Source: Chloroherpetonaceae bacterium (GTDB lineage: Bacteria; Bacteroidota; Chlorobiia; Chlorobiales; Thermochlorobacteraceae). Taken from it: a DNA stretch of 64,000 nucleotides. Below, piece by piece: positions 25,180 through 35,074 of the stretch. The notes under the pieces were generated by a model, which saw only the letters and a list, made by a program, of their open reading frames with translations, was not told the DNA's origin and ran no database searches. The stretch lies in assembly GCA_025056565.1 (NCBI GenBank), contig JANWWA010000011.1:1-64000 (forward strand). Reading direction: 5' to 3'. A program made the translations under genes and the position numbers. Position 1 is the first letter of the stretch. The number at the start of each line of letters is the position of its first letter.

Positions 25180-28100
25180 TTACTTTTTGCTTGGCTTTGG
25201 CACTGTGATGTTGAACGACTTCGTATCTTCACCACCCGCGTCATCTTTCACAGTTATCTGTACTGTGAACCGACCGATAGTTTCTTCACTGGCTTTGAAG
25301 GTTAGTTTGCCTTCAGGCGAGAGCGTTGCGCCCTGTGGTAAGCCCGTAGCCGTAAAGGTGAGCTTATCCTCTTTGTCTTCATCGGTTGCCACAAGTTGCA
25401 AATCAAGCGTTTCGCCTATTTTCACGGTCGCATCTTTCGGCTTTTCCAGTTTCGGCTTTCGATTTAGTCGCTCAATTGTTAGCGACACGCTCATTGTGTC
25501 TTCTGCGCCAAAAGAATCCTTTACGCTAAACTTCACTTCGTAACTACCACGCTGACCGTAGTCAGGCTGCCAAGTAAATTGCTGATTGCTAAACTGTGCG
25601 CCCTGCGGCAAGCCCGCCGCCGTATAGCTCAAGCGTGTGTCCTCACGGTCATTGTCGCTGGCTGAGATGCGGAATGAAATTTTATCTCGCTCTTTGGCTT
25701 GAATCGCGTTCTGCCGCACAAACTTCGGACGATAAGGCACACGTAAGACAAACGACTTGGTATCTGCACCATCAAGGTCGTCTTTCACAGTTACTTGCAC
25801 ATTATATGTGCCACTCTGCGCATCATCGGGCGTGAAAGTGAGCTTGCCTTCAGGCGAGAGTGTTGCACCCTGTGGTAAGCCCGTAGCTGTAAAAGTGAGC
25901 TTATCTTCTTTGTCTTCGTCGGTGGCGACAAACTGAATTTCAAGTGGCGTGCCTAACTTCGCCACCACATCTTTGGGCTGCTGCAGCACAGGTTTTCGGT
26001 TAAGCCGTTCAATCGTCATTGCCACACTCATTGTATCTTCTCCACCGAAAGAATCCCGCACACGGAACAACACCGCATAACTGCCACGCTGGCCGTAGTC
26101 AGGCTGCCACGAGAACGTTTGCGTTGTGCGGTCAAACTTTGCACCCGCAGGTAAATTCTCGGCAGAAAAGACCAGCTTGCCCTTATCCTCTTTGTCAAGG
26201 TCTTCGGCAGAAACTTTGAATGAAATATTCTGTCGCTCTATTGCTTTGATGGGTTGCGCCGCCACAAATTTCGGTGCCCGATTGGTGTTCTGAATCGTAA
26301 TGGTCTGTGTTTTCTTATCTGTGAGACCTTCTACATCGGTTACAGTGTAGCTAATTTTGTAAGTGCCAGATTGCTCAAAGTTTGGCGTCCAAGTGAAGGT
26401 TTTGCCATCGAACTTTGCGCCTTCGGGCAAGTTTTCTGCCGTCACTTTCAGCTTACCTTCGTCTTCGACATCGGGGTCTTGTGCCGTGATGTCAAACTTC
26501 AGCTCTGCATTTTCACTGCCTTTGGCATCAGCAATTGGGTCAAGTTTTGGTGGACGGTTGGTGTTTTCAACTGTAATGGTTGCAACGGCTTCGCCTGAGA
26601 GTGGCGTGCCATCAATTCCTGTATCAGTCGCGCGGAAAATTACGCGATAAGTGCCTGACTGTGTGTTATCGGGTTTCCACGCAAATGTGCGCGTTTTGGG
26701 GTCAAAGTTTGCCCCTCGTGGCAGACTATCGGCAGAGAAAGTTAGTTTGCCCTCATCTTCTTTGTCAGGGTCACTTGCGCTTACAGTGAACGTCAGTTGT
26801 GCATTTTCACGCACTTGCTTGCTGGGAATTGCTGCCACCACAGGCGGACGGTTCTTTTGCTTCACCGTGATAAAAACGGTCATTGTGTCTGAGAGGCGCT
26901 TGTTACTGGGCATTAGTTTAGCATCAAGTCCTTGGTCTTCGACCTTAAAGCGCACCGTGTATTCGCCTGCTTGTGTGTAGTCAGGCTTCCACTTGAAGGT
27001 GCGCGTTGGCGGGTCGAAGGTTGCGCCTTTCGGAAGGGCGCTGGCTGTGTAGGTTAGTTTGCTTTCATCCTCTTTGTCGGGATCAATGGCTTCAACCACA
27101 AAGTTGCCATCTGTGTCTTCAGTGAAGATTTGCTTTTCCATCCGGGTAAATTTCGGTGCCAGATTGACATTATCGACTCGAATTTTCAGCTCTTTGGAAT
27201 CGGTCTTTGCACCGCGCTTATCCGTATTTGCATCTTGCACGGTGAATTTAACGCTGTAGTCTCCTGCCTGCGTGAAATCGGGTCTCCAAGTCAGTGTGCG
27301 TGTAGCAGGGTCGAAACTGGCGCCTCGGGGCAAATTGTCCGCAAAGTAAGTAAGCTTTCCAGCATCTTCTTTGTCGGGATCTTTGGCTTCGGGCAGTTGG
27401 TATTTTAGCTCTCTATCTTCCAGCGTGAGTTGAGCTTGAAGCTCTGGTAAGCTGGGTGCGCGATTGACGTGATTGACTGTAATGCGCAGTGGCAATTCGC
27501 TGTAGAGTGAATCGCGTGAAAGTTCCGTAATACGCACCTTGAAATCATAGACGCCTGACTGGTCGTAAGTTGGCCTCCAAGTCAGGGTGCGCGTCTCTGT
27601 GTTGTAGAAACAGCTATCGGGCATCTTTCCTGCTGCCGGCAGTAGCGAAATGCGCACAGGGCTGCCATCTGGGTCATTCCCCTCAAAGGTGTAAGTGAGC
27701 AGTTGGTCTTCGTCAGCAGAAAGATTCTTGACATTCGTAAGGAGCGGCGTGAGATTGAAGTTATAGACCAAAAGCCCGTTCTTGTCTGTTGCAGCATAGA
27801 TGGCATGGTCAGCCACCACCATTCTCCCAATTTCACCAATGCCGCGGTCTGCTTTTTCCACAGGGTTATCGGCTTCGTCTGAATCCGAGAACATCTTTTT
27901 AAGGTCATAGACCGTTATGCCACCGCGTCCTGCACCTACGAAAAAGAAGCGCGGGTTCAGCGTGTAGTATGCTAACCCTCCCACATATGTCCGAAAGTTG
28001 TATGAAAAAATGCGCTTTGGCAGATTGATATTTGAGATAGAGAGAACTTCAAAGCCATTGGCTGCGTTGGCTAAGAAGACCAGCGTATCGTTTGCAATTG

Positions 28101-28809
28101 CATAGCGCAGTGTTTTAGCACTAGGGTAATTAGAAAGCAGCCTTAAGCTACTTGGGTTTGTTGCATCTAAAATGCGCAGCCCCCCCTCACGGTCGCTGAC
28201 AAAGAGCTTGCCCTTGTTGTAAGATACTCCCCAAGCATAGTTCCAAGGCAAGAGCTGTGAGGTTTCCGCAATCCGCTCAGGCTTGGCAGGATTACGCAAG
28301 CTCCAGACCTCAATGCCACCTTTGCCTGTGGCGACGAAGAGGTAGTTTTTTTCATCGTCCGTGCATAAATCATATGATTCTTTCGAGAGTGTCTGAAAAC
28401 TGCCCACTAACTTAATTTGTGTAGGGTCAGCGACATTGAAGACATCAATGCCGTTGGTATTGTCGCTCAGGTAGAGGTAATTGTCTTTTTTTACCATACC
28501 TGCAGTCGGCAGTGAAATCTCTTTTGAGAAGCCCAGCTGGAGCGGCTCGAGGCGATTTTTGATGTCATATGTGTATAAACCTGCCGTGTTTGCGGCTAAG
28601 TAGAGCACATCCCCTTCTACACAGATGGCAGCAATCCCATCTCGAGCAAAAATCGGGTCGCCCACTCGTTCCAGCTTATTGAATGACGCTAGTGCGTCGG
28701 CGCTGTATGGTGTGTACTGTGCAGCGGTTTTTGAACTTGCAAAAAGAACCAGTACTAAGAAAAGACAAAGCCTCACAGTTGGGTGAGAAGGATACAGAAT
28801 ACGCCTCAT
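25180..28809 (-). CDS. Giant secreted protein: LVIVD propeller plus nine Ig-like repeats
   Basis: The protein has 1209 residues from the ATG at 28809, with a signal peptide ending TAAQ. Residues about 45-370 hold seven LVIVD-type blades (patterns such as LYLSDNTNGIDVFNVADP and LFVSDREGGLRILDATNP). From about 375 to the end come nine cadherin/putative-Ig-like repeats of 90-100 residues, each with a D-x-D-x-E-D calcium-site-like motif, L-x-A-x-x-LP-GA-F, and W-PD-x-Q-G-Y. It ends in VPKPSKK without a type IX sorting domain. It is probably a surface adhesin or scaffold. A divergent Omp85 gene begins 87 bases away. Confidence 0.8.
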   Translation of the reverse strand: MRRILYPSHPTVRLCLFLVLVLFASSKTAAQYTPYSADALASFNKLERVGDPIFARDGIAAICVEGDVLYLAANTAGLYTYDIKNRLEPLQLGFSKEISLPTAGMVKKDNYLYLSDNTNGIDVFNVADPTQIKLVGSFQTLSKESYDLCTDDEKNYLFVATGKGGIEVWSLRNPAKPERIAETSQLLPWNYAWGVSYNKGKLFVSDREGGLRILDATNPSSLRLLSNYPSAKTLRYAIANDTLVFLANAANGFEVLSISNINLPKRIFSYNFRTYVGGLAYYTLNPRFFFVGAGRGGITVYDLKKMFSDSDEADNPVEKADRGIGEIGRMVVADHAIYAATDKNGLLVYNFNLTPLLTNVKNLSADEDQLLTYTFEGNDPDGSPVRISLLPAAGKMPDSCFYNTETRTLTWRPTYDQSGVYDFKVRITELSRDSLYSELPLRITVNHVNRAPSLPELQAQLTLEDRELKYQLPEAKDPDKEDAGKLTYFADNLPRGASFDPATRTLTWRPDFTQAGDYSVKFTVQDANTDKRGAKTDSKELKIRVDNVNLAPKFTRMEKQIFTEDTDGNFVVEAIDPDKEDESKLTYTASALPKGATFDPPTRTFKWKPDYTQAGEYTVRFKVEDQGLDAKLMPSNKRLSDTMTVFITVKQKNRPPVVAAIPSKQVRENAQLTFTVSASDPDKEDEGKLTFSADSLPRGANFDPKTRTFAWKPDNTQSGTYRVIFRATDTGIDGTPLSGEAVATITVENTNRPPKLDPIADAKGSENAELKFDITAQDPDVEDEGKLKVTAENLPEGAKFDGKTFTWTPNFEQSGTYKISYTVTDVEGLTDKKTQTITIQNTNRAPKFVAAQPIKAIERQNISFKVSAEDLDKEDKGKLVFSAENLPAGAKFDRTTQTFSWQPDYGQRGSYAVLFRVRDSFGGEDTMSVAMTIERLNRKPVLQQPKDVVAKLGTPLEIQFVATDEDKEDKLTFTATGLPQGATLSPEGKLTFTPDDAQSGTYNVQVTVKDDLDGADTKSFVLRVPYRPKFVRQNAIQAKERDKISFRISASDNDREDTRLSYTAAGLPQGAQFSNQQFTWQPDYGQRGSYEVKFSVKDSFGAEDTMSVSLTIERLNRKPKLEKPKDATVKIGETLDLQLVATDEDKEDKLTFTATGLPQGATLSPEGKLTFKASEETIGRFTVQITVKDDAGGEDTKSFNITVPKPSKK
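25200..27760 (-). repeat. Nine tandem Ig-like repeats within the giant gene
   Basis: Nine units of about 270-300 bases. The last four read as a duplicated pair: repeat 6 resembles 8 (QPDYGQRGSY) and repeat 7 is almost identical to 9 (TATGLPQGATLSPEGKLTF). The near-identical DNA blocks lie about 540 bases apart. Confidence 0.8.
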
Positions 28810-28895
28810 TGGTAAATGGAATGCATTTTGGGTTTTATGGTTACACATTCAGCGTGGCAGCTGAGCACTTGCTACATCGTGAGACCTTTCGGCAA

Positions 28896-30752
28896 ATGAA
28901 TGACTTACGGCACAGGGACAAATTTACGAAACAGCTTGCGCTTTGCAATGTGAGTTTTGCCCTATCTATGCTGCTTGCTTTTTCACTATGGGCTGCACTG
29001 GCTGCTGCACAAGTCCCCACCACTTCGCCCACACTTACATCTGTGCGATTGGTCGGCGCTCAGCAACTTGCCAGCAGCTCTCTTAGCACACTTTTTTCTC
29101 TTCCTGCACCGCTTGATTCGCTTTCTTTCCACGCGGCTCTCAATCGCCTTCGAGACATCTACTTACGACTTGGCTACTACGATTTTCAGCTCGACAGTGT
29201 GCGCTGGGTCTATTCCCCTGACAGCAGTCAAGTGCATGCTGAAGTCTTTTTTACAGAAGGCAAACCGACGCGCATTGGCGAAATTCACCTTGTCGGCAAC
29301 CGCACCCTCTCTACTGATGCTTTGCGTTTTTTGATGCGCACCCACGAAGGTGATGCCTTAGACAGTGAGACTCTGGAACAAGATTTTAATGCGATTTTGG
29401 AGAAGTATGAAGAACTTGGGCGACCTTTTAGCAAAATCTCTATCGCTGCATTAGAGCGAGTTCAGAATAAAGCCAGTGAGCCAGTGCTGCGACTTGTGAT
29501 TTGCGTGCAAGAGGGTGCATTAGTCAAAATTGCTGGCTACAAGTTTTCAGATAGCTTGAACACACAGCCAGAGACCATTCTGCGAGAGCTTTCGCTTAAA
29601 ATTGGCGAGCCATACAGTGAGAGAAAATTTCTCAGCCTTCGACCACGCTTAGAGCGCTTAGGCTGGTTTGAAAAAGTCAGTGAGCCAGAGCTGCTAGTGA
29701 TTCCACCTCAGCACAAGGATAGCGACACGCTTTATGCCATCATTCGCCTTGACCTTGTGGAAGGTCATGTCAATACCTTTGATGGCATCGTGGGCTATCA
29801 GCCTCCTATTCCACCTGAGGAGGCAGGGATTGTTACGGGATTCGTCCACATCGGCTTACGCAACCTCTTTGGCACAGGGCGGCAACTGGGCGTACGCTGG
29901 CTTCGTCCTAACAATTTCACGCAAGAACTACGTCTTAGCTATCAAGAGCCTTGGATACTGGGCATTCCACTCACCGCCACCTTTAACGTCATGCAACTGC
30001 AGCAAGACTCCTCTTTTTCTCAACTTCTTCTTTCTAGCGCGCTCTCATATCAGCTTAGTGAGCAGTTATCGGTTAGTGGTCTCTTGCAACTTGAGACTAT
30101 CAATCCGATTTTTCAAGGCACAGCTCGAATTGACCCAATTCTGCAAAGCAGCATCACGCTTACTGGTGCAGCGATTGCATATGACTCGCGCGACAATCTT
30201 CTAAACCCCAGCAGCGGCATTTATTTTCGCAATGAATACCGTATTGGCACGAAAACGCTCAACGCATCGGATTCACTTCTGCAGGCTCTACAAGTGCGTC
30301 GCAGCGTGGTGCAGCAGCGCCTAAGTCTTGAAGCAGAGTGGTATCAGCCTACCTTTTTGCGTCAAGTGTTTGCATTGCGTCTTGTTGGGCAAGCGCTTCT
30401 TGCTGAAGAAGTGCAGCTGAGCGACCTTTTTCGCTTCGGCGGTGCGCAGACTCTACGTGGCTACCGTGAGCAAGAGTTTTTAGCCTCGCGCTATGCGTTT
30501 CTCAACCTTGAGTATCGCTTGCAGCTTTCGCCCAAGTCCTTTGCATTTGTCTTTTATGACGTAGGCTACTTTTTCAAGCCGCAAAATCCACTAAATCCGC
30601 TGGATAGAATGCAAGAAGGCTGGCGAAAGGGTTTCGGCGCTGGCGCCAGAATTGATACACCACTTGGCATTGTTGGCATCAGCTATGCACTGGGCGAAGG
30701 TGATACGATTCTACGCGGCAAAGTGCACTTCAACCTCCTTAACCAATTTTGA
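28896..30752 (+). CDS. Omp85/BamA-superfamily outer-membrane protein (TamA/BamA-like)
   Basis: The protein has 618 residues from the ATG at 28896, with a signal sequence ending ALAAAQ; upstream in-frame starts would run through the divergent promoter region. There are three POTRA domains (about 40-105, 105-185, 195-275; e.g. RIGEIHLVGNRTLS). A 16-strand-type barrel follows, with the L6-loop motif LRGYREQEF and the terminal strand region FGAGARIDTPLGIVGISYALG. The last residue is Phe, as in barrel substrates. Such proteins insert or translocate outer-membrane or surface proteins. Three POTRAs fit TamA better than BamA (five). Confidence 0.87.
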   Translation: MNDLRHRDKFTKQLALCNVSFALSMLLAFSLWAALAAAQVPTTSPTLTSVRLVGAQQLASSSLSTLFSLPAPLDSLSFHAALNRLRDIYLRLGYYDFQLDSVRWVYSPDSSQVHAEVFFTEGKPTRIGEIHLVGNRTLSTDALRFLMRTHEGDALDSETLEQDFNAILEKYEELGRPFSKISIAALERVQNKASEPVLRLVICVQEGALVKIAGYKFSDSLNTQPETILRELSLKIGEPYSERKFLSLRPRLERLGWFEKVSEPELLVIPPQHKDSDTLYAIIRLDLVEGHVNTFDGIVGYQPPIPPEEAGIVTGFVHIGLRNLFGTGRQLGVRWLRPNNFTQELRLSYQEPWILGIPLTATFNVMQLQQDSSFSQLLLSSALSYQLSEQLSVSGLLQLETINPIFQGTARIDPILQSSITLTGAAIAYDSRDNLLNPSSGIYFRNEYRIGTKTLNASDSLLQALQVRRSVVQQRLSLEAEWYQPTFLRQVFALRLVGQALLAEEVQLSDLFRFGGAQTLRGYREQEFLASRYAFLNLEYRLQLSPKSFAFVFYDVGYFFKPQNPLNPLDRMQEGWRKGFGAGARIDTPLGIVGISYALGEGDTILRGKVHFNLLNQF

Positions 30753-30841: not shown

Positions 30842-32263
30842 TTACTTTGCTTCTGCTACCCTTTGGTTTTCGCGCTCACGCATAAGCTGCGCAATACGGC
30901 TTTTGTCTTTGTTCACGGTGTAGTCCAAGTAATCGTTCAGCGCTGCAATTTCCTCAGGGGTACCTACCAGCTGCGGCATATACTTCTTGTAGGGCGAACC
31001 ATCTTGATACTCGTGTAGGGTTTTTAGGAAGTTGCCAATTGCTTGATGGTCTCGACCCGATAAGAACTTGGCTATTGAGCGATAGCCCGTTGTGGTGTGG
31101 CAGTTTAGGCATTGCCCACGATACATCGCTTCGCCCTTAGCTAAAATGAGTTCAGGTTCATTGGTCTTATCTGCTACCTGACGCACCCACATTGATTTGC
31201 TTAGATAGCCCTTGCTATTCAGTTCAGCGACTTCGCTGCGGCGAATACCGTTGGAATACATATGCTGCGCAATTACATATGGCTTACGGAGCATTTCGCG
31301 CGCATACTCTCCTGTTGCCGTTACGACAGCCGCCAGACACAGCACGGCTAAGCCATGTCCGAATGTAAAGTCCTGAGGCGCACGGCGCACAAAGAAATAC
31401 ACTACGCCGACAATCGTGGCGGATGTCATCACCATTACCAGCGCAATGCGCGTTACTTGCGTAAACGCGCCAGAACCAATTGTAGAAATGCCAAGCTCCA
31501 GCAGTGAGCGATTCGCTTCAGGCACACTGGCAAGATACCAGAGAAATGCCAGCGGCGTTGCCACAAACGAGGGAATCAGCCACTTGGAGCTCCAAGTAAT
31601 CAGCTCACCTTTTGCTTCATCGTCATTTCCTAAGCGGCTGTAAGAGACCAGCGCCCAAATTCCTGCCAGCGAAATGCACACCAAGAAACGCAGAAAGAGA
31701 CTGGGGAAATAAGTTGGATTAAAGAATGCCGACCAGAACTGTGATGCTTCTTGCCCTGTGCCTGCTACCGCAAGCCATGCATCACCAGGCGTGAGCATAA
31801 AGGTGAGAATGCCGTTGATAATCACCAGCGTTAAAAATGACGATACGGCATACACCCACCCTACGCGCTGATGCGCCTCGTGCGAAATCTTATTCCATGA
31901 GTAGTAATACACCGCCGCTGCCGAGAGTTCAATCACGAAAAACACCCACTCTATAGCCCACCCGAAGACAAAGTTGTGAATGAGTGTGCTGGTTGATTCA
32001 GGGTGTGCTAGTCCAATTGCAAACCAGATACCAACGCCTGAAATAGCCCCGAACACGCCAGTCATAATCAGGAAAAAGCGCGAGTGCCTTTGTAGGCGTG
32101 GCAGCCAGTCCAAGCGATTTTGTTTCAGCGCTATGCGTTCTGCAATCACCAAATACAAGCCTCCCCCTACGGCAAATTGGGAGATGAGCACATGCATAAT
32201 TGAGATAAGGCCAATCACCCAACCACTGCCGATAAAGGGCACGTCCCAAAATGGATAGTTCAT
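30842..32263 (-). CDS. CydA-like bd-oxidase subunit fused to a c-type cytochrome
   Basis: This 473-residue protein has 8-9 membrane helices and a C-terminal cytochrome c domain (Cys385, Cys388 and His389 in CLNCH, probable axial Met in KKYMPQL). The membrane part aligns by eye with CydA. His24 in the first helix matches the E. coli His19 site, Glu105 and Glu112 (AIEWVFFVIE) match Glu99/Glu107, and Glu319 in GEYAREMLRKPYV matches Glu445. The low-spin haem b558 His186 position appears to be Arg192 (FFNP...FLRF), and the long quinol-binding loop is absent. Electrons probably enter through haem c from the Rieske/cytochrome b partners. Last gene of a four-gene operon. Confidence 0.8.
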   Translation of the reverse strand: MNYPFWDVPFIGSGWVIGLISIMHVLISQFAVGGGLYLVIAERIALKQNRLDWLPRLQRHSRFFLIMTGVFGAISGVGIWFAIGLAHPESTSTLIHNFVFGWAIEWVFFVIELSAAAVYYYSWNKISHEAHQRVGWVYAVSSFLTLVIINGILTFMLTPGDAWLAVAGTGQEASQFWSAFFNPTYFPSLFLRFLVCISLAGIWALVSYSRLGNDDEAKGELITWSSKWLIPSFVATPLAFLWYLASVPEANRSLLELGISTIGSGAFTQVTRIALVMVMTSATIVGVVYFFVRRAPQDFTFGHGLAVLCLAAVVTATGEYAREMLRKPYVIAQHMYSNGIRRSEVAELNSKGYLSKSMWVRQVADKTNEPELILAKGEAMYRGQCLNCHTTTGYRSIAKFLSGRDHQAIGNFLKTLHEYQDGSPYKKYMPQLVGTPEEIAALNDYLDYTVNKDKSRIAQLMRERENQRVAEAK

Positions 32264-32314: not shown

Positions 32315-33394
32315 CTACAATGCAAGGTATCCCCAGATAGTCGTGACCACAATGATACCGAGTGCCAAGAGTCCGAAATATGTAGCATTGCGAGCACGCC
32401 GCCCATTTTCGTGCTTGCCATCGTAGAGTGGAATCAGCGCCCAAAGCAGCAAACCTAAGGTGAAAAGTGTAATACCTACAGCTTCCCCGAAGGCTGCCAT
32501 ATCGCCCGAAAAGAGCTTACCCAAAAGTTTTAGCGTCTGGAAGGCACTCATAAAATACCACTCAGGGTGAATGCCCTCTGGAGCAGGCTTCAAGGGGTCA
32601 GCCTCCTCACCAATACCCCACGGGTAAATTGATGCACAAAGCGCTAGCACATTGAGCGCAATGAGCCACATTGCAAGGTCCTGCATCAAAAAGTTGGGGA
32701 AAAATGGCACGGACTTTCGCTGCCACTCGGGCTTGGCTTCTTCACTGGGTGGCACGGCATTGCCATGCTTCTGCACCAGCCAAAGGTGAAAAATGAGAAT
32801 CGGCAGAAAAATTGCCGGCATCACGACCACATGCATCGCAAAGAAGCGCTGCACCGTTATATCACTGACCTCCAAGCCACCTCGAAAGAGATTGGTCATT
32901 GGCGGGCCAATGATTGGCAAGGCTTCTGGAATAGACAGTCCTACTTTGGTCGCAAAGTATGCCAGCTCGTCCATTGGCAGAAGATAGCCGCTAAAGCCGA
33001 ATAGCAGTGTGAGAATGAGGAGAAGCATCCCACTCCACCAGCCAAACTCACGTGGCGAGCGATAGGCCTTCATAAAATAGACAGAAAACATATGCACAAA
33101 GACCGCTACCACCATTAGATTTGCTGACCACGAGTGTGCTGAGCGAATCAGCCAGCCAAAGTGGATTTCATTTGTAATCTGCCGTACCGATTCATATGCT
33201 TCGTGTCCTGGACGATAGTAGACCAGTAGCAAGACACCTGTTACGCACTGCACGATGAAGAAAAAGAGCGAAATGCCGCCCCAGAAATACCAAAACGAAT
33301 GCTGATGCACAGGCACCGTCTTCTTTGAGGCAAACTTGATAATGTCGCTAATGCTGAGCCGCTCATCCACCCAGCGATAAAGGGCTTTCATCAT
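32315..33394 (-). CDS. Cytochrome b, b6f-type, of a Rieske/cytochrome b complex
   Basis: This 359-residue protein has about eight helices, a b6-plus-subunit-IV fusion. The haem His pairs are H-x13-H (HSWSANLMVVAVFVH) and H-x14-H (HVVVMPAIFLPILIFH); the 14-residue spacing is that of b6f-type proteins. The quinol-oxidation motif is PEWY (HPEWYFMSAF). It receives electrons from quinol and splits them between the Rieske centre and the b haems. A Shine-Dalgarno AAAGGAG precedes the ATG. It is the third gene of the operon, 22 bases after the Rieske gene and 51 bases before the CydA-cytochrome c gene. Confidence 0.93.
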   Translation of the reverse strand: MMKALYRWVDERLSISDIIKFASKKTVPVHQHSFWYFWGGISLFFFIVQCVTGVLLLVYYRPGHEAYESVRQITNEIHFGWLIRSAHSWSANLMVVAVFVHMFSVYFMKAYRSPREFGWWSGMLLLILTLLFGFSGYLLPMDELAYFATKVGLSIPEALPIIGPPMTNLFRGGLEVSDITVQRFFAMHVVVMPAIFLPILIFHLWLVQKHGNAVPPSEEAKPEWQRKSVPFFPNFLMQDLAMWLIALNVLALCASIYPWGIGEEADPLKPAPEGIHPEWYFMSAFQTLKLLGKLFSGDMAAFGEAVGITLFTLGLLLWALIPLYDGKHENGRRARNATYFGLLALGIIVVTTIWGYLAL

Positions 33395-33416: not shown

Positions 33417-33905
33417 TTAGGCTTTTGAAATGGTTACACCATTTTCACCGACTTCCACCTTGTAAGTTTTGAGCGGCTTTGGCGGTGGCCCCGCCACTGC
33501 TGCTCCCGTCTTGACATCATAGACACCACCATGGCAGGCGCAAAAGAGTCGATTGGTATCAGGTTGATACTGCACGGTGCATGCCATATGCGTGCAGACC
33601 GCCTCCATGGCTGTCCACGAGCCATCTTTGTGATGAATGAGAATACCTGGGCGCGTGCCAAACTTAAACATCACGGCTGAACCCGGCTCTAACTTATGCG
33701 CTTCTGGCAAATGTACCTCTGAGACTTTTGCCGCTTCAGCTGACTTCTGTATAGGTGATGCCAGATATTGATAAATCGGATAGCCAATCGCTCCAGCGTA
33801 GCAAAGTCCTACGCCAGTAAAGAGCACCTTTGCAAACGTTCTGCGACTGATTGGCTCTGCTGGCACGCTTTCAGTCGCCAGCTTTTGTTCTACTGCGTTA
33901 CTCAT
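33417..33905 (-). CDS. Rieske 2Fe-2S protein, Tat-exported
   Basis: This 162-residue protein has a twin-arginine motif (ISRRTFAK, residues about 19-26) followed by a single membrane anchor (VLFTGVGLCYAGAIGYPIY). The cluster boxes are CTHMAC and CACHGG, with all four ligands (two Cys, two His) and both disulfide cysteines present. Box I has Ala where Gly is usual, which may slightly tune the potential. It oxidises quinol together with the cytochrome b encoded next and passes electrons to a c-type haem, here most likely the fused cytochrome c. Its ATG overlaps the upstream CydA'-like stop as ATGA. Confidence 0.93.
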   Translation of the reverse strand: MSNAVEQKLATESVPAEPISRRTFAKVLFTGVGLCYAGAIGYPIYQYLASPIQKSAEAAKVSEVHLPEAHKLEPGSAVMFKFGTRPGILIHHKDGSWTAMEAVCTHMACTVQYQPDTNRLFCACHGGVYDVKTGAAVAGPPPKPLKTYKVEVGENGVTISKA

Positions 33906-35074
33906 TTTGCCACTTCCTCCACACTTGATTTGGATTCAAAAATCGTATTGTCCAGTCCTAGCACAACTGGCTTGGCTTTGAACACCACCGTTAGCAGCCA
34001 CCCAACCACGCCTAGACCGATGACAAAGAGGACAAGAAAAATTGCTACAACTGACCAGTTTGTTACCACGACCCTATCCCACACATCAAAACCTTTTGTA
34101 AGCAAGGTTACATCACGCAAAGCATCACGGTAAGCCGTCATTGATAGCATTGCAACCACCGCCATAACAAAACCTGCCCAGCCAATTATGCGAGAGGGTT
34201 GCGACTGCACCGCACTCCATACAGCTAACGCAAAAAGCACGCCCGCTAGCCCTACCCAAAGGTAGCCTGAGACAGTCGCCAAGAGCGATTGCCCGAGTGC
34301 GTCTTGCACAGCTGGTGGTTGTGCCACTACGACCCAATACGCACATACACCCTGCGCAAAAAGCCCAGACGCAGCTAACCTCCCACCTAATCCGCTCATA
34401 TAAGTTTGCAGGTCTCGGAAGAACTTGCTGGATGGCGCCAGCCACAGCAGCCAGATGCCTGCTACTGAAAAGCCTCCGAACAAGATAAAGAGCCAGCGCG
34501 GTGTTGTCGTGGGGTCGTCAAATGGCAACTGCGCACCCAGTGGCGAATTAGTGTATAGCGCGTTCCACACTTCGGGGCGCAGCATTAAGGTCATGTTGGT
34601 TGAGTAGATGCGTGCAATGACCACCGCCAGCACCCACGCGCCAAGCCCAAGATGCCAATAAGGTTTTCCTTCAGTTGCTCGTGCTGAAATGCGATACAGT
34701 AGCCAATAACACCCCATCAGCAGAAAAATGACCGCAAACCAGTATAGCCCAATGAGAATGCTGCTAGTATAAATCGCTCGCCCATATAGCACTTGCGTAA
34801 AGAGCAAAGGCGGCACGCCAAGGTTAATCACATAAGTCATCACGATAGGCAGCCGATTCGCAATGACCTGTCCTGTTTGAGCACGATTCACGGCTGAAAG
34901 CTGTCGCGGCTCTCGCCGTGAGAGCACATTCATCGCTACTGCCACCAGCAGCCCACCCATCAGCATTTCCATTGCTACAAAGTGCAGCCCTAGCGTTACG
35001 ATATGCAGAAGTTTGAAGAGCCAGACAGGAGCGGGTAGTGGAATTGGGTCGACAGCAGGAAAGTGATACTCCAT
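33902..35074 (-). CDS. CydA'-like nine-helix membrane protein, first gene of the cytochrome operon
   Basis: This 390-residue protein has about nine helices. It is homologous by eye to the CydA-like protein at the other end of the operon: helix 1 has His24 (KLLHIVTLGLH) at the same position, STNMTLMLRPEVW matches NGILTFMLTPGDAW, and SVAGIWLLW matches SLAGIWALV. The Glu pair of the active subunit is missing, and there is no CxxCH. I therefore read it as an inactive CydA' partner, as in CydAA' pairs, occupying the CydB position. A good Shine-Dalgarno (AAAGGAG) precedes the ATG. It could instead be an unrelated quinone-binding subunit. Confidence 0.65.
   Translation of the reverse strand: MEYHFPAVDPIPLPAPVWLFKLLHIVTLGLHFVAMEMLMGGLLVAVAMNVLSRREPRQLSAVNRAQTGQVIANRLPIVMTYVINLGVPPLLFTQVLYGRAIYTSSILIGLYWFAVIFLLMGCYWLLYRISARATEGKPYWHLGLGAWVLAVVIARIYSTNMTLMLRPEVWNALYTNSPLGAQLPFDDPTTTPRWLFILFGGFSVAGIWLLWLAPSSKFFRDLQTYMSGLGGRLAASGLFAQGVCAYWVVVAQPPAVQDALGQSLLATVSGYLWVGLAGVLFALAVWSAVQSQPSRIIGWAGFVMAVVAMLSMTAYRDALRDVTLLTKGFDVWDRVVVTNWSVVAIFLVLFVIGLGVVGWLLTVVFKAKPVVLGLDNTIFESKSSVEEVAK

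Follow-up and report, generated by a model that had tools for sequence, protein, structure and literature searches.

The window, meaning the whole 64,000-nucleotide stretch of DNA that was analysed, carries a four-gene operon on its minus strand. In transcriptional order, the genes encode a CydA-like partner subunit (33902–35074, a membrane protein of 390 amino acids), a Rieske iron–sulphur protein (33417–33905, 162 amino acids), a cytochrome b (32315–33394, 359 amino acids) and, last, a CydA-like subunit with a C-terminal haem-c domain (30842–32263, 473 amino acids with an ATG start), hereafter CydA-c. All further coordinates given for CydA-c are likewise on the minus strand. The reading frame of CydA-c was confirmed as originally predicted, in a reading that had overlooked the operon with its Rieske protein, cytochrome b and second CydA-like subunit. 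Both cluster boxes are present in the Rieske protein, and the cytochrome b displays the PEWY motif and four haem histidines with b6-type spacing, conserved in its family at positions 87/101 and 188/203, so that the pair has the features that define bc1/b6f-type modules. Genes for a separate cytochrome c1 or f, for a soluble cytochrome c and for detoxification or the nitrogen cycle are all absent from the operon. Promoter and terminator scans gave results close to chance level.

Residues 15–202 of CydA-c match the Cyt_bd_oxida_I family (PF01654; E = 2.4e-16, 59.8 bits against a curated cut-off of 26.2), and this is the only PF01654 match in the 2.9-Mb genome. In an AlphaFold2 model (pLDDT 87.5, pTM 0.83), the c domain comes after eight long membrane helices. 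Foldseek comparison of the model returned 13 PDB matches at E values up to 0.001, all 13 of them cytochrome bd subunits (5doq_A, E = 5e-07). CydA-c thus combines a PF01654 match above the cut-off, the CydA fold and the ligands of both active-site haems, as expected of a member of the cytochrome bd superfamily. Towards the C terminus, residues 375–446 give a weak cytochrome c match (E = 0.001, under the Pfam curated cut-off) within a domain spanning about residues 369–454 (30902–31159). This domain contains a CLNCH haem-c binding motif at residues 385–389 (31097–31111) and, in a YMP motif, Met429 (30977–30979) as the likely axial ligand; the motif and a methionine ligand had both been foreseen. 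Whereas E. coli CydA has nine helices and a cytoplasmic C terminus, CydA-c has eight, and loss of the last helix would place its c domain in the periplasm. Haem-c attachment requires this location. Cytochrome c assembly genes are present in the host genome.

Residue conservation was assessed in an alignment of 58 CydA-c homologues of 39–87% identity. His24, Glu105, Glu112, Arg192, Glu319, Glu323, Arg326, Lys327, Pro328, Cys385, Cys388, His389, Met429 and Pro430 are invariant in 58 of 58 sequences, and invariance of the site residues across homologues this divergent excludes chance. The same invariance of every site residue rules out a decayed CydA. The original prediction equated His24 with E. 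coli CydA His19 and the Glu105/Glu112 pair with Glu99/Glu107. These assignments (codons at 32192–32194, 31949–31951 and 31928–31930, respectively) are upheld both by joint alignments and by profile comparison of CydA-c with E. coli and Chlorobi CydA (97.1% probability, E = 7e-11), and the spacing of seven between the two glutamates is the same in the Geobacillus enzyme 5doq. In the E. coli structure, haems d and b595 are ligated by Glu99 and Glu445 (PMC6853902). The equivalence first proposed between Glu319 and Glu445 proved wrong: the counterpart of Glu445 is Glu323 (31295–31297), because E323-M-L-R-K-P aligns with E445-Y-G-R-Q-P in a shared E-x-x-R-x-P motif. HMMER alignments to 5doq and one of two MAFFT runs give the same assignment. 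In the other, a local-pair run, the entire C-terminal region was misaligned and Glu445 fell in the linker; alignment of the C-terminal half accordingly depends on settings. The invariant Glu319 (31307–31309) lies one helix turn away, at the position of Trp441, a replacement that may alter the chemistry of the site. In the family, His96 (31976–31978), close to where helix 3 begins, shows at least 90% conservation.

Unlike canonical qOR enzymes, CydA-c lacks the ligands of the low-spin haem b558 and the quinol-binding Q-loop. Arg192 (31688–31690), which had been assigned to the position of the b558 ligand His186, falls on that histidine in the profile alignment to 5doq, whereas joint MAFFT alignment with E. 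coli CydA places His186 at Leu191, one residue away. The exact placement therefore shifts with the alignment, and the loss does not: neither alignment has a conserved histidine at this position. For Met393, the other b558 ligand, alignments of the CydA-c family show no conserved methionine counterpart, a loss that had escaped the first reading. As that reading had noted, the long Q-loop is missing. It is replaced by a short loop (31460–31528) of 28 residues, or 20 in a remoter clade, compared with about 130 in E. coli, and the joint alignment offers no counterparts of Lys252 and Glu257 in a loop of either length. Retention of the active-site residues, loss of the b558 ligands and Q-loop, gain of an invariant haem-c domain and the adjoining Rieske and cytochrome b genes together lend sequence-level support to the prediction of an O2-reducing site that would be fed by haem c and not directly by quinol. 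The assembly as a whole would probably still be a quinol oxidase, but an indirect one, acting through the cytochrome b and Rieske protein of the same operon.

The partner subunit has no significant match in Pfam or NCBIfam, and a PDB sequence search with its profile gave no match. Its kinship with CydA is established by profile comparison with CydA-c (97.5% probability, E = 4.9e-12) and by a fold search with its predicted structure (pLDDT 91), in which the matches were cytochrome bd subunits and CydA ranked first. When the partner was compared directly, profile against profile, with a small alignment of qOR CydA sequences, the match fell short of significance (8.7% probability). An invariant His31 occupies the His19 position, and no glutamate pair is found at the Glu99/Glu107 position. 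Residue 317 is Asp in 36 of 49 sequences or His in 10 of 49 and may match Glu445, in a part of the alignment made by eye; through this residue the partner may hold a haem of its own. A search of the host genome for CydB (PF02322) gave zero matches while the positive controls matched, ruling out a CydB encoded elsewhere in the genome. Since the partner is homologous to CydA-c and CydB is absent, the oxidase part of the operon seems to consist of two CydA paralogues and no CydB.

We scanned contigs of 84,980 species for CydA-c homologues, found 325 and kept the best 80. Among these 80, the nearest named relative is that of Candidatus Thermochlorobacter aerophilum (87% identity), and hosts include Acidobacteriota, Verrucomicrobiota, Armatimonadota, Planctomycetota, Omnitrophota, Sumerlaeota, Hydrogenedentota and Chlorobiota. 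Within the host's own family, all eight other genomes searched carry the CydA-c gene, one of them as a fragment. The order partner–Rieske–cytochrome b–CydA-c on one strand is preserved in every contig covering all four genes (56 of 56 among the best 80, across eight phyla), with median intergenic gaps of −4, 6.5 and 22.5 bp. The four proteins also diverge in step: correlations between their distance matrices are 0.71–0.83, against a null maximum of 0.30. The four genes are thus co-inherited, and they occur in a phototroph from a hot spring as well as in many bacteria unrelated to it, most of them non-phototrophs judging by their phyla. In two Verrucomicrobia loci (L060:4308-5972 and L062:4282-5988), partner and Rieske protein are encoded in one reading frame; no cytochrome b homologue adjoins either fusion gene. 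A separate, remoter clade in a quick tree contains 18 homologues with CydA-c and partner and without neighbouring Rieske or cytochrome b genes. Because of this clade and the two fusion loci, a cytochrome b/Rieske donor is not universal. In an Ignavibacteriae genome (L067:4698-7296), a tandem pair of CydA-c copies precedes a single partner gene in the vicinity of ccoN/ccoO-like genes, and a Chloracidobacterium cassette (L064:3326-7068) shows several broken matches that suggest frameshifts or assembly errors.

Bd families without a quinol site, OR-C and OR-N, were reportedly described by Murali, Gennis and Hemp in 2021, and OR-C is said to be the branch with a haem-c domain on CydA. As such families have already been described, CydA-c most likely belongs to a known but little-studied kind: by that account it shares with OR-C a CydA-like core, the high-spin haem residues, the lack of a quinol site and a haem-c domain on CydA. 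Of its features, the fixed bc–bd cassette most merits testing. With canonical qOR enzymes (E. coli CydAB and Geobacillus 5doq), CydA-c shares the fold and counterparts of His19, Glu99, Glu107, Glu445, Arg448 and Pro450, and differs from them also in having one helix fewer, a haem-c domain and a CydA-like partner in place of CydB. Summaries of the superfamily divide it into qOR, OR-C and OR-N and place the quinol site in qOR (PMC10839748, PMC13189123). The OR-N or CydAA′ bd-like oxidases of Nitrospira, Nitrospina and Archaea likewise have two CydA paralogues instead of CydAB, and their bacterial members have no quinol site and a proposed cytochrome c donor (PMC10839748, PMC3578206); 14 helices are predicted for the Nitrospina protein (PMC3578206). 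The cassette differs from these in the fusion of a haem-c domain to CydA and the presence of Rieske and cytochrome b genes within the operon. In Nitrospira, complex III genes cluster with those of bd-like oxidases and a supercomplex has been suggested (PMC6606698). Our literature search for a bc–bd operon or complex returned just the Nitrospira and Nitrospina bd-like oxidases, with the clustering of complex III genes noted for them; no bc–bd complex is described in the literature searched, which left out the defining paper on these families.

Other routes to oxygen were sought in the cassette genomes. The host encodes one caa3-type haem-copper oxidase beside alternative complex III-like genes (named by eye from their sequences) and a second Rieske/cytochrome b pair outside the cassette. 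This second cytochrome b is 44% identical to that of the host's cassette, whereas cassette cytochromes b of other phyla are 60–71% identical to it. A haem-copper oxidase is present in 43 of 50 cassette genomes. The other seven show neither haem-copper oxidase nor CydB, but they are mostly metagenome-assembled genomes that may be incomplete, which makes the absence weak evidence.

We propose that the operon probably encodes a respiratory menaquinol:O2 oxidoreductase, in which a cytochrome b/Rieske module serves a two-subunit bd-type reductase composed of CydA-c and the partner that replaces CydB. The cytochrome b/Rieske site would oxidise quinol, presumably menaquinol. Of the two electrons, one would pass directly from the Rieske cluster to haem c on the periplasmic tail of CydA-c and from there to a pair of high-spin haems, with His24, Glu105 and Glu323 as their ligands, where O2 would be reduced to water. 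The second electron would be recycled through the two b haems of cytochrome b in a Q-cycle. The haem-c domain would in this way replace cytochrome c1 and low-spin haem b558 alike. This route agrees with the invariant active-site residues, with a haem-c domain having taken the place of the b558 ligands and Q-loop, with the absence of a c1 gene from the operon and with the partner–Rieske fusions. The fixed gene order, the correlated divergence, the absence of CydB, the presence of cytochrome c assembly genes and the seven genomes showing neither of the other oxidases point the same way. Against it stand the haem-copper oxidase found in most cassette genomes, the host included, and the 18-member clade and two fusion loci in which all or part of the proposed donor module is missing alongside. 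A further point against it is the glutamate at the Trp441 position. More tentatively, the four genes could encode one stable bc–bd supercomplex, its Q-cycle module wired directly to the bd-type oxidase by the oxidase-borne haem c. Such a complex would resemble the actinobacterial bcc-aa3 supercomplex, a quinol:O2 oxidoreductase in which a Rieske/cytochrome b module is joined to an oxidase through bound haem c. It would differ in having haem c on the oxidase subunit and a terminal unit of the bd type rather than the haem-copper type, and its formation is a prediction here. By this analogy, the cassette would work like a III–IV supercomplex with a bd-type terminal unit.

The main rival explanation, which we consider unlikely, is that CydA-c and its partner form a free-standing cytochrome c:O2 oxidoreductase of the bd type. 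Its donor would be a soluble or lipid-anchored cytochrome c or alternative complex III, and the Rieske protein and cytochrome b would merely be co-transcribed and reduce the same carrier, with no stable complex. The 18 homologues that have CydA-c and partner without the adjoining module fit this arrangement; cytochrome c is the donor proposed for the OR-N relatives (PMC10839748), and both alternative complex III-like genes and a further Rieske/cytochrome b pair occur in the host. However, the operon supplies no soluble cytochrome c, and a four-gene order fixed in every complete cassette, the correlated divergence and the fusion of partner to Rieske protein all argue for contact between the modules. 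Far less probable is an arrangement without O2 reduction, in which the CydA-like pair would anchor an unusual cytochrome bc complex in the membrane and provide its haem-c subunit, handing electrons on to, for example, a photosynthetic reaction centre or the caa3 oxidase. The c domain could indeed serve as the missing cytochrome c1, a haem-copper oxidase is available in most cassette genomes and Trp441 has given way to Glu319, but a mere anchor would have no need of ligands for both high-spin haems that are invariant in all 58 homologues. Moreover, the hosts are mostly non-phototrophs, and seven cassette genomes show neither of the two other types of oxygen reductase that were searched for. Least credible is a detoxifying site that mainly reduces another small ligand, NO or peroxide: bd-type haem sites react with both and Glu319, close to the site, is unusual and invariant, but the operon holds no detoxification or nitrogen-cycle gene and the inferred coupling to a Q-cycle module points to energy conservation.

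Less energy is conserved by canonical bd oxidases because they bypass complex III. If the proposed menaquinol:O2 oxidoreductase is correct, a bd-type oxidase would instead be coupled to a Q-cycle; in the form of the stable supercomplex, it would end a respiratory chain with a complex III-like energy yield. With such coupling, energy-yield estimates would change for many environmental bacteria among the Acidobacteriota, Verrucomicrobiota, Armatimonadota, Planctomycetota and aerobic Chlorobiota. Annotation is affected as well: with the partner matching neither Pfam nor NCBIfam and CydA-c matched only by half, reconstructions of respiration will overlook the enzyme or wrongly label it a quinol oxidase. 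The host is a member of the Thermochlorobacter lineage, a group of aerobic green phototrophs in which oxygen respiration is itself of direct interest.

Two further genes lie near the operon in the window. The plus-strand frame at 28683–30752 encodes an Omp85/BamA-like protein with POTRA repeats; its listed ATG overlaps an opposite-strand frame ending at 28848, and the true start probably lies later. That opposite-strand frame (25180–28848, minus strand) encodes a 1222-residue protein with LVIVD repeats at its N terminus, followed by about nine Ig/cadherin-like repeats.
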